This document shows, piece after piece, positions 19,170 through 63,684 of a stretch of DNA of 64,000 nucleotides. Each line of letters opens with the position of its first letter. Positions within the stretch are counted from its first letter, which is position 1. Position numbers and translations under genes: made by a program. The stretch is from Tenericutes bacterium HGW-Tenericutes-1 (GTDB lineage: Bacteria; Bacillota_I; Bacilli_A; Izemoplasmatales; Hujiaoplasmataceae), in NCBI GenBank assembly GCA_002839155.1, contig PGXM01000001.1, positions 186,001 through 250,000 on the forward strand. The letters run 5' to 3'. Below the pieces are notes generated by a model. That model was not told the DNA's origin and ran no database searches. It was given only the letters and a program-made list of their open reading frames with translations.

Positions 19170-20348
19170 TTATAATAGTTTCTTCAATAAGCTCTTGCCA
19201 TAGGCTGTTTGAGCAACATTGAAGTTGTCAGCAATCGTAGCTCCAAGATCCGCAAAAGTATCGCTATCAGGCAAAATACTGCCCTTAAAGTACCGGTTAT
19301 AAAAGAACATTGGAACATATTCTCTCGTATGGTCGGTTCCTGAATGTGTTGGGTCATTTCCATGATCAGCTGTAATAATTAACAAATCTTCTTCACCGAT
19401 TAATGGAAGTAAATTCCCTAGATCATGGTCAAATTCTTCTAAAGCATTTTTATATCCAATTGCATCACGACGGTGTCCGTATAATGCATCAAAATCAACG
19501 AGATTGACAAAACATAATCCCATGAAATCATCTTTTGCAATAGCCATCGTTTTTAACATTCCATCATGATTTGAGACAATTGAGTGATGCGCATTAATAC
19601 CAGACCCATTGAAGATATCACGAATTTTTCCCACTGAGATAACATCAAACCGAGACTCATCAAGGTAATTTAAAACCGTTTTTTCAGTTGGACTTAAAGC
19701 ATAATCATGACGGTTTGTCGTTCGTTTGAATCCATTGACTTCATCCCCTAAAAAAGGTCTAGCAATGATTCTTCCAACTTTCCACTCGTCTTTCATCATA
19801 ATCTCACGTGCTATGTGACAAATATGATAAAGTTCTTCAAGCGGTACTACTTGTTCGTGAGCAGCAATTTGTAAAACGGAGTCCGCACTGGTATAAACGA
19901 TTAACGCCCCTGTTTTCACATGCTCCGGCCCAAGTTCAACTAAGATTTCTGTTCCACTCGCTGCTTTATTTCCAATCACTTTTCTTCCGGTTTTTTTCTC
20001 CAATTCGTCAATCAATTCCTGAGGGAATCCCGTATCAGTAAATGTTTGGAATGGCGTTTCGGTTTTTATTCCGACAAATTCCCAGTGTCCCGTCATTGTG
20101 TCTTTACCATTGGATAGCTCTGCCATCTTTCCAACATTAGCTATTGGATTAACTACAGGCTTAACTCCTAATATTTCGGTTAAGTTCCCATAACCAAAAG
20201 ATTCTAATACTGGTAAAGATATTCCACCAGCGGCTCTTGATAAATTACCGATTGTGTTGCTACCGACGTCGCCAAATTTAATAGCATCAGGCATTGCCCC
20301 TACGCCAACAGAGTCCATGACGATTAAAAATATTCTTTTGTATTTCAT
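19170..20348 (-). CDS. deoB: Phosphopentomutase
   Basis: DeoB interconverts ribose-5-P and ribose-1-P (and the deoxy forms) in nucleoside salvage. The 392-aa protein of the alkaline-phosphatase superfamily has IVMDSVGVGAMPDA (metal Asp), KDTMTGHWEF (phosphorylated Thr), HEQVVP and the metal-binding ITADHGNDPTHSGTDHTREY. Its start overlaps the xerD stop by 4 bp (ATGA). The xerD-deoB order matches Bacillus. It is the last gene before a terminator. Confidence 0.97.
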   Translation of the reverse strand: MKYKRIFLIVMDSVGVGAMPDAIKFGDVGSNTIGNLSRAAGGISLPVLESFGYGNLTEILGVKPVVNPIANVGKMAELSNGKDTMTGHWEFVGIKTETPFQTFTDTGFPQELIDELEKKTGRKVIGNKAASGTEILVELGPEHVKTGALIVYTSADSVLQIAAHEQVVPLEELYHICHIAREIMMKDEWKVGRIIARPFLGDEVNGFKRTTNRHDYALSPTEKTVLNYLDESRFDVISVGKIRDIFNGSGINAHHSIVSNHDGMLKTMAIAKDDFMGLCFVNLVDFDALYGHRRDAIGYKNALEEFDHDLGNLLPLIGEEDLLIITADHGNDPTHSGTDHTREYVPMFFYNRYFKGSILPDSDTFADLGATIADNFNVAQTAYGKSLLKKLL

Positions 20349-21268
20349 TTTATAACTTCCTTTCGATTCGCACGAGGATGTGCGGATTGGTATGCATTTT
20401 GTAAGTGTTGTTTTGAGATATGCGTATAATTTTCAGTCGTCATGATATCCTCATGACCAAGCAGCTCTTGAACAGCCCTAAGATCAGCGCCATTTTCTAA
20501 CAAGTGAGTTGCGAAAGAATGTCTTAATGTATGAGGAGAAATCGATTTTTCTATCCCGGCGGTTTGAGCCAAATTTTGGATAATCTTATAAAATCCGACC
20601 CTTGAAAGTCTTTGTCCAGTCCGATTGACAAATAACATGTCTTTGCCTTCTGGATGAATTAATGGTCTTGAATCAACAAGATATTTTCTTAAAGCAATTA
20701 CTGCATTTTCACCTAAAGGAACAATTCTTTCTTTTGATCCTTTTCCAACTATTTTAACCAATGAATTGTTTAAATGCAAGTCCGATATCTTTAAATTAAT
20801 TAATTCAGAGACTCTTAGTCCTGAACCATAAGCTAATTCAATCATCGCAAGATTTCGAATCTCAAGAATTTTTGATTCACCCTTGGCGGCTTCTATGAGT
20901 TTCATAATCTCTTCTTGATTTAAAACTACGGGTAAAGCATTGGTCACTTTCGGTTGTGAAATTGATAAGATAATATTATCATCACAAAGTTTCTCAGAAA
21001 CTAAATAATGGTGAAACGACTTAATCGCTGAGAGTTTTCTTGCGATTGACCTAGCAGTTAGTTCTGCGCGTTTTAGATGATTTAAATAGTTTAAGGCATG
21101 CTGTTTTTCAATTCGGTCAGGTTTGGTAATATGATATTGTTTATCCATAAACTGAATATAATCGAGTAAATCATTCTGATAAGAAATGATGGTGTTTTTT
21201 GCAAGATTTTTTGTAATTTTCAAATAGTAAATGTATTCTTTTAAAAATCCCTCTAACAATTCAATCAC
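20345..21268 (-). CDS. xerD: Tyrosine recombinase XerD
   Basis: XerD resolves chromosome dimers at dif. The 307-aa protein has an N-terminal SAM-like core-binding domain (about 5-90). The catalytic domain contains R (GSGLRVSEL), K (VGKGSKERIVPL), H-x-x-R (HTLRHSFATHL), H (LGHEDIMTTENY) and the nucleophilic Tyr in NYTHIS. Its housekeeping context (hemW upstream, deoB downstream) argues for the chromosomal Xer enzyme rather than a phage integrase. Whether a XerC partner exists elsewhere is not known. Confidence 0.93.
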   Translation of the reverse strand: MIELLEGFLKEYIYYLKITKNLAKNTIISYQNDLLDYIQFMDKQYHITKPDRIEKQHALNYLNHLKRAELTARSIARKLSAIKSFHHYLVSEKLCDDNIILSISQPKVTNALPVVLNQEEIMKLIEAAKGESKILEIRNLAMIELAYGSGLRVSELINLKISDLHLNNSLVKIVGKGSKERIVPLGENAVIALRKYLVDSRPLIHPEGKDMLFVNRTGQRLSRVGFYKIIQNLAQTAGIEKSISPHTLRHSFATHLLENGADLRAVQELLGHEDIMTTENYTHISKQHLQNAYQSAHPRANRKEVIK

Positions 21269-61627: not shown

Positions 61628-62449
61628 TTATTGAAATTTCAAAGAAATATCTAATGAATCATAGGAGTGTGTTAATGCGCCCACAGAGATATAATCAACG
61701 CCAGTTAATGCAACATCTTTAATTCTTTCAAGTGACATGTTTCCACTCGCTTCAAGTAATTTTTTATGGGCCGTAATTTTGACACATTCAGCCATCATAG
61801 GACAACTCATGTTATCGAGCATAATGATATCGGCCTCGGTATTTAATGCTTCTTTCAATTGCTCGATAGATTCAACTTCGACTTCAATTTTGATTGAATC
61901 AGCAATTTTATTTTTAAGAATAGATACTGCTTTAGTGATAGAACCAGCGGCTTGAATATGATTATCTTTAATCATTGCCATTTCTGATAAATTCATCCGG
62001 TGATTCGTTCCACCGCCATCTTTCACCGCTTGTTTTTCTAAAATGCGTAAATTGGGGGTTGTTTTTCTTGTATCTAATATTTTGGCATTTGTCCCTACAG
62101 TTTGTGATACAAACAAATCAGTTAACGTTGCAATACCGCTCATGCGTTGCATGAAATTTAAGGCGACGCGTTCTGCTTTTAAAATCGAACTTGATAGCCC
62201 TGAAACTCTGGCGATAATATCCCCTTTTTTAACCCGTGATCCATCTGGCATAAAAACATTAAATTCAAGGGATGAATCGACTTGCTTAAACGTTTCATAA
62301 GCGACGGTCACACCTGAAATGATTCCTGAAGCTTTAGCGATAAATAGAGCGATTGATTGTTCGTTTTTAAACAAATTATCAGTGGTAATATCGCCACTAG
62401 GCATATCTTCTTTAAGTGCATTTTGGATAATTGTTGTGAGATCATTCAT
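61628..62449 (-). CDS. nadC: Nicotinate-nucleotide pyrophosphorylase (quinolinate phosphoribosyltransferase)
   Basis: NadC makes nicotinate mononucleotide from quinolinate and PRPP. The 273-aa protein has DTRKTTPNLRILEKQAVKDG, HRMNLSEMAMIKDNHI and the C-terminal VDYISVGALTHS. nadA and nadB are not nearby, so quinolinate may be made elsewhere or imported. It starts 2 bp after a gene for a Fic-like/winged-helix protein, so the two are an operon. Confidence 0.96.
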   Translation of the reverse strand: MNDLTTIIQNALKEDMPSGDITTDNLFKNEQSIALFIAKASGIISGVTVAYETFKQVDSSLEFNVFMPDGSRVKKGDIIARVSGLSSSILKAERVALNFMQRMSGIATLTDLFVSQTVGTNAKILDTRKTTPNLRILEKQAVKDGGGTNHRMNLSEMAMIKDNHIQAAGSITKAVSILKNKIADSIKIEVEVESIEQLKEALNTEADIIMLDNMSCPMMAECVKITAHKKLLEASGNMSLERIKDVALTGVDYISVGALTHSYDSLDISLKFQ

Positions 62450-62451
62450 AG

Positions 62452-63540
62452 TTATTCTCCTAAGTCAAAATTCATTTGTTTTAAAATTGATTTTTTTGAT
62501 TCTTTTTGATAAAGTTTCGTCCATTTAGCACTTCTACCTTTACCAAGTGGACGGATCTTGTTTTCATCTTGCATCCGTTTCAATGTACGATTGATGGTTG
62601 AATCAGAAATGAGAGGATGTTTAAGTCTTATATCTTCTTTAGAGAAGATTTGATTTAGTTTATCAATCGTGTTTTCGATATAATCGGATTTTGAAATTTC
62701 TAAGGAAGACTCATATTGATAATCTCTAGCCATTTCTTCAAGTTCATTATAAAGTTCATAATGTATCCGTAACATTAAACGGTGTATTGGATTGATTTCA
62801 GAGTAACCGTCTTTCCAATTCATTTTCGAAAAATCTTTTGCGGTATTATACTCTTTTAAGTTTAACAAAAGTTTACCAAAAAAGGATACATATTGCGTTG
62901 CATTAATGCCATCTTGCATACAAATAATATAATAAATCAAGATAGAAACAACGTCAGAATCTGGAATTTTATAAATATCCATATTCATGAAATCGACCAT
63001 AAAATTTAAGTTAACATAACTGAGTTCATACTCATTAGCGCGTCTAATAGATGAATATAAGGCTATCATTTGTTCTAAAGATTCTCTTTTTGAAATTGAC
63101 TCAACAGAAAGCAATGAGTGTTTAACTCTTTCAAGTTTATTATAGGACAATTGATCTTTGGTGTAATAATCTTTATAGAGCAATAAGACGAGGTTATGAA
63201 TCTCAGTGACCGTGAGTTCAAACGGCGTTCTTCTTGGAGCGTGAACAATATTGAAGACTTCTAAGATGTTCTTATAAAGTGTTTCCGCTTTATTTTTCGG
63301 TCTTGTAGAATCGAGTTGTAATGATTTTAATCTGGATTCAGGTATTTTTAAATCCGTGTAAAAGCAGCGATAAAAACTATACGCTTCAAGGGTTGTTAAT
63401 TGCTTGGATAAAAACTCATAATCGTCTTTAAATAATTCGTTATAATGTTGGTTTTTTCCAATCTCGCGGTAAAGACGTAACGACTGAATAATGACATCAT
63501 TAGGGATTTGTTTTTTTGTAATATTTTCTAAACATTTCAT
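62452..63540 (-). CDS. Fic-like protein with degenerate active site and C-terminal winged helix
   Basis: This 362-aa protein is not confidently assigned. A helical core (about 90-275) follows the order of a Fic domain; the end KEYNTAKDFSKMNWKDG resembles the tail of Fic proteins. At the catalytic loop, where HPFxDGNGR is expected, it has VNLNFMVDFMNMDIYK, so AMP transfer is unlikely. The C-terminus (about 290-342, SDSTINRTLKRMQDENKIRPLG) looks like a winged helix as in Fic regulators. The ATG at 63540 is well spaced from AGGTG. Coupling to nadC suggests a regulator of NAD synthesis; this is inference. Confidence 0.6.
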   Translation of the reverse strand: MKCLENITKKQIPNDVIIQSLRLYREIGKNQHYNELFKDDYEFLSKQLTTLEAYSFYRCFYTDLKIPESRLKSLQLDSTRPKNKAETLYKNILEVFNIVHAPRRTPFELTVTEIHNLVLLLYKDYYTKDQLSYNKLERVKHSLLSVESISKRESLEQMIALYSSIRRANEYELSYVNLNFMVDFMNMDIYKIPDSDVVSILIYYIICMQDGINATQYVSFFGKLLLNLKEYNTAKDFSKMNWKDGYSEINPIHRLMLRIHYELYNELEEMARDYQYESSLEISKSDYIENTIDKLNQIFSKEDIRLKHPLISDSTINRTLKRMQDENKIRPLGKGRSAKWTKLYQKESKKSILKQMNFDLGE

Positions 63541-63558
63541 TTTCATCACCTGAAAAAC

Positions 63559-63579
63559 ATTATACAATATCAGTATAAT
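63559..63579. promoter_or_regulatory. Inverted repeat at the Fic-like/nadC promoter
   Basis: ATTATAC and GTATAAT form a perfect 7-7-7 inverted repeat. Its left arm contains the minus-strand TATAAT (63559-63564) about 19 bp upstream of the start. A protein bound here would block the promoter. The rest of 63580-63690 is AT-rich with no clear feature. Confidence 0.5.
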
Positions 63580-63684
63580 ATTTGATATAGTTTATAGTAA
63601 AAAAAAATATAAAATATTCGATTAATCATAATCATTTTAAAGAATATGAGTATATTTAAGTAATGATATCGCATTTTTTCGTTT

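Follow-up and report, generated by a model that had tools for sequence, protein, structure and literature searches.

The window, that is, the whole 64-kb stretch of DNA analyzed here, carries near its right end a gene for a protein of 362 amino acids (62452..63540, minus strand), which we call reg. As the initial annotation had described, the open reading frame is real and there is a 2-bp gap between its end and nadC (61628..62449, minus strand), which matches TIGR00078 with an E-value of 8.7e-98. Upstream of reg lie an inverted repeat of the 7-7-7 type, ATTATAC-n7-GTATAAT (63559..63579, no strand assigned), and a dyad, TTAAATATACTCA-N12-TGATTATGATTAA (63622..63659, minus strand), which is a putative reg site. 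The dyad is located 81 nt before the reg ATG and scores 19.6 bits. The window also holds a gene for an XerD-type recombinase (20345..21268, minus strand), which is expected to act at dif; judging from the translations, its neighbors are presumably a phosphopentomutase-like gene and a HemW-like gene, one on each side. The XerD model TIGR02225 matched in all 41 relatives and exceeded its cut-off in 28 of them.

We predicted the structure of reg with AlphaFold2 from a 51-sequence alignment (mean pLDDT 87.8). The closest solved structure to the model is the Fic protein 8uqu (Z 28.2, TMt 0.89, rmsd 2.3, 251 aligned residues), and the next matches are further Fic proteins that carry a winged helix at the C terminus. 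A phmmer search with reg returned the same Fido-domain protein 8uqu as the one solved relative (E 3.7e-8), with the alignment running through the winged-helix end. Pfam and NCBIfam gave no match over cut-off for reg, and where kinship with the NAD regulators was considered, the Fic fold was found instead. The predicted winged helix comprises residues 282-343 (62512..62697, minus strand) and is the best-conserved part of the protein, with a run, STINRT, that is almost invariant among relatives. Its structural matches, at Z 8-9, are the winged helices of DIP2311, DpnI, and ORC/MCM.

The Fic active-site loop survives as a remnant at residues 183-200 (62941..62994, minus strand), in which the His, both Gly, and the Arg of HPFxDGNGR are replaced. 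None of the 51 aligned relatives retains the AMP-transferase motif HPFx[D/E]GN[G/K]R. The column of the catalytic His contains no His in any of them, and the loop has lost its Gly-Arg end, while Pro-Phe and Asn often persist. In fold and domain order, reg resembles the Fic proteins of 360-370 amino acids with a C-terminal winged helix (8uqu; SoFic, 3eqx/3zcn), but differs from them by the loss of the catalytic motif in 51/51 reg relatives. The fold match, the motif loss, and the conserved winged helix together support the model-based view that reg is a catalytically dead Fic fold joined to a winged helix, as the initial annotation had proposed from the core layout, the degenerate loop, and the C-terminal segment.

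A genome scan yielded 77 reg loci, whose titles are mostly Izemoplasmatales, Acholeplasmatales, Mollicutes, and unclassified Bacilli or Bacillales. There were reg matches in 38 of the 41 relatives, one of them (G017) weak and looking like a paralogous Fic. In the class sample, 153 of 296 genomes matched when weaker matches were included, and we read the weaker ones as putative active Fic paralogs.

The initial annotation had suggested that reg is an autoregulated repressor of NAD synthesis. The 2-bp gap favors such a role, as does the presence of nadC within 40 nt of reg in 39 of 78 loci. However, nadC is absent from the available stretch in 35 of the 78, all of which offer 1 kb of room or more, and the remaining 4 are too short to judge. 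In many loci without nadC the order is parE-parC-reg, followed by argS or a PHP phosphatase gene (names read from translations). The consistent link to NAD genes that is expected of NAD regulators (NiaR, NrtR, NadQ) was thus not found, and the association of reg with nadC is a neighborhood of particular lineages. The proposed operator fared no better. The 7-7-7 repeat is indeed exact and overlaps the TATAAT −10 region, and at 0 mismatches it occurs once in the whole window. In the orthologous promoters examined, including that of the 78%-identical sister L002, it was not seen, a finding that the initial annotation itself had named as counting against its proposal; the GTATAAT arm is the −10 region common to the relatives. 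Genome-wide, the core TATACN7GTATA with up to one mismatch is rarer than its reversed control (64 vs 150), and of two further exact core matches one lies within a repeat-protein gene and the other in an operon with a carbamoyltransferase-like gene. We therefore rejected the repeat as an operator. The dyads described below follow dif and reg, standing beside dif and, in Acholeplasmatales, before parE, and we consider the NAD repressor largely refuted by gene context and motif evidence, with hardly any probability left to it.

The upstream element that is conserved among reg genes is a different dyad, TTAAAYATANTCA-N11-14-TGANTATRWTTAA, whose half-site TGANTATRWTTAA usually lies 49-81 nt before the ATG. 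A matrix was trained on dyads of reg promoters only, and a sequence model of the 27 dyads was searched in 41 genomes. At 16.5 bits or more, the dyad is present in 23/31 intergenic reg promoters vs 2/1550 shuffles, the same promoters having trained the matrix. Of the eight promoters that lack it, three (L088, L092, L097) have the dyad upstream of parE instead. All four Acholeplasmatales parE-parC-reg operons with the parE promoter at hand, none of them used in training, carry it there at 17-29 bits; no dyad was found before parE in eight loci of the CSSed group. Since neither dif nor parE sites entered the training, the dyads at these two places are independent tests of the matrix. The position of the dyad in reg's own promoter suggests that reg probably regulates itself, and this part of the initial annotation is supported, with another putative operator.

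Bacteria untangle their doubled chromosomes at dif, the XerCD recombination site. Chromosomal dif is usually given a length of 28 bp, with XerC, XerD, and FtsK as the proteins that serve it. In addition to the reg promoters, the 27-dyad model found a second set of strong sites in the 41 genomes, near a 28-bp element. This element matches the B. subtilis dif, ACTTCCTAGAATATATATTATGTAAACT, as quoted in PMC3025954. We found dif in 33 of the 41 relatives, mostly as a single copy, and did not find it in the other 8; that of the window genome lies outside the window (G000:C4:115889-115913). In 31 of the 33 loci, the best matrix dyad within 300 bp of dif lies at 99-100 bp from the dif pattern, and in the other two the contig ends before the place of the dyad. 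With 11 further genomes of other families added to the relatives, 42 dif loci of reg families could be tested, and 41 of them carry the dyad on the XerC side at a distance of 98-100 bp from the pattern; these counts are inflated by kinship, as the loci are not independent. The placement on the XerC side is inferred from the conserved right arm (PMC5357621). By comparison, the dyad was present at none of 12 dif loci in 11 same-class genomes without reg and at 12 of 3068 control positions. Four of the 15 reg-less genomes (G041, G059, G061, G068) were unused as their dif was unconvincing, and G052 was used at 3 mismatches; G089 was left out, its dif being indistinguishable from chance hits, and no dyad was found in its two candidate stretches.

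As dif begins two bases before the pattern, the distance from the dyad to the 28-bp dif is 97-98 bp in families f1-f3; in the Acholeplasma-like family f12 it is 96-97 bp. The sole miss (G189) has the right half-site only, with reg present 0.5 kb from dif (L272), and in another locus (L271, G054) the reg gene is about 1.0 kb away. The testable loci include two draft genomes, G016 and G017, that carry the dif dyad though we found no reg ortholog in either. In the GC-rich or distant relatives G034, G040, and G054 the dyads have drifted but keep their symmetry (12/13 in G034, 11/13 in G054). An alignment of 32 loci at dif gave 0.56 and 0.80 bits per column for the dyad halves and 1.40 for dif, vs 0.32 for the spacer and 0.14 for the upstream flank. 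We had considered that the stretch from the dyad to the asparaginase gene might encode a conserved RNA, but Rfam was empty in 14 loci and the conserved block is dif itself. A DnaA-box-like sequence, TGTGGATAA, lies with 0-1 mismatch exactly at −38 from the dif pattern in 16/43 loci (for example L146, L147, and L276) and in 0/12 dif loci without reg. In three loci of one genus (L278-L280; G127, G106, G082), the interval from the main dyad to dif contains a further half-site or partial dyad.

An autoregulated transcription factor of the ordinary kind, whose dif-side dyad controls the neighboring gene, would account for the dyads in the promoters of reg and of parE-parC-reg. However, the genes beside the dif dyad change among lineages (PHP phosphatase and asparaginase in some, ruvA and rarA in others), whereas the distance to dif is nearly constant. 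In L070 (G034), where two places were examined, there is no dyad before parE and the dif copy alone is retained. We regard this explanation as quite unlikely. In six loci (L132, L136, L141, L142, L147, L148), the dif region is flanked by genes resembling nadB, PHP phosphatase, and asparaginase.

The arrangement of dyad and dif resembles, by its architecture, the accessory system of the plasmid site cer. In ColE1, the XerC site of cer has the Arg-box 98 bp upstream (PMC2409434). ArgR and PepA wrap the DNA there so that dimers alone are resolved (PMC2409434; PMC5357621). The reg dyad shares with cer a regulator site at a fixed distance of about 98 bp from the core on the XerC side, and ArgR, as would hold for reg, both binds this DNA and has a part in gene control (PMC2409434; PMC5357621). 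The differences are that cer is a plasmid site and dif is chromosomal, that a Fic-derived protein would replace ArgR, and that the window genome has no PepA.

We favor, with modest confidence and from comparative sequence evidence, the reading that reg is a pseudo-Fic DNA-binding accessory factor at the chromosomal dif which also controls its own expression. A dead Fic protein would thus have turned into a sequence-specific DNA binder of the chromosome terminus. It would bind the dyad 96-98 bp from the XerC arm of dif, probably as a dimer via two winged helices. Once bound, reg could assist XerCD recombination, as an accessory protein or by shaping the architecture or topology of the DNA, much as ArgR does at cer; alternatively, it could assist the work of topoisomerase IV and FtsK at dif. 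Through the dyad before its own operon, which includes parE-parC in Acholeplasmatales, it may set its own level. More tentatively, a cer-like complex may stand at the chromosomal dif in a large part of the class, in which a dead Fic protein gates XerCD and, in Acholeplasmatales, couples it to the expression of topoisomerase IV. In some genomes, such a complex would have the DnaA-box-like site between the reg dyad and dif. The dif dyads of G016 and G017 without reg, the half-site of G189, the dyad-less parE promoters of the eight CSSed-group loci, the absence from the window genome of PepA, which is the main architect at cer, and the extra terminus dyads of G036, which point to a wider role, are points against.

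Two further ideas about this machinery were rejected. PepA (M17 aminopeptidase, PF00883) is present in 117/296 genomes and absent from the window genome, so that it is not a general partner of reg. Nor does reg replace FtsK, as the FtsK-gamma domain is present in 264/296 genomes, including that of the window. In many reg families the FtsK-gamma E-values (about 1e-12 to 1e-23) are weaker than those in many reg-less families (about 1e-24 to 1e-32), families f10 and f9 being exceptions.

The main rival to the accessory-factor reading is a terminus organizer comparable to MatP at matS, in which reg binds many dyads of the terminus and organizes or tethers the region with no action on recombination. 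One genome, G036, fits this well: the 400 kb around its dif contain eight dyads of at least 14 bits, none of them farther than about 75 kb from dif, vs no such dyad in 400 kb elsewhere. Wrong-gap controls in its terminus gave 2, 0, and 0, and eight of the nine matches listed for it are within C1:820-998 kb. The reg gene itself is roughly 90-180 kb from dif in eight genomes (G000, G019, G026, G028, G032, G036, G147, and G170). However, the enrichment is weak in G032 (9 per 240 kb vs 2 per 160 kb; wrong gaps 2, 5, 2) and absent in G026 (7 vs 3; wrong gaps 2, 1, 2), and all three genomes belong to one genus. Terminus-specific sites, the likeness to MatP/matS, are therefore clear in G036 alone, and we rejected such clustering as a general rule. 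The fixed site at dif and the small number of sites distinguish reg from MatP, whose fold is unrelated, and an exact dif spacing is unexpected for an organizer. A wider role of reg in the terminus is possible, though not a general one, and the organizer as a full explanation seems to us unlikely, if worth keeping in mind.

The terminus location, the site at its own promoter, and the winged helix are also reminiscent of RTP, which, like Tus, binds Ter sites in the terminus and has a site at its own promoter. On this model reg would be a replication-fork trap with termination sites near dif that represses its own gene. The reg dyad, however, is near-symmetric, usually present in one copy, and held at a fixed distance from dif, and the opposed polar arrays of the RTP/Ter and Tus/Ter systems were not seen around it. 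We consider a fork trap very improbable.

If the accessory-factor reading is correct, reg and its dyad would be, as far as the literature searched shows, the first accessory protein and site dedicated to a chromosomal dif, and reg the first Fic fold recruited for chromosome segregation. A pseudo-enzyme Fic fold would then have a chromosome function, and a core gene of Acholeplasmatales and Izemoplasmatales without a family name would have a job. In the open-licence PMC literature we found no paper linking reg to dif, including for 8UQU. According to the Xer review PMC5357621, the B. subtilis translocases SftA and SpoIIIE are not direct activators of its Xer recombinases, and how recombination is switched on is left open there. 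This question would become testable with a conserved protein whose site keeps a fixed distance to dif, and reg may reveal how a large group of wall-less bacteria controls the dif step. Upstream of xerD, at about 1.1 kb from its start, two genomes also carry a dyad (G032:C1:1818629 and G036:C1:862107), the G032 copy lying inside the gene before xerD.
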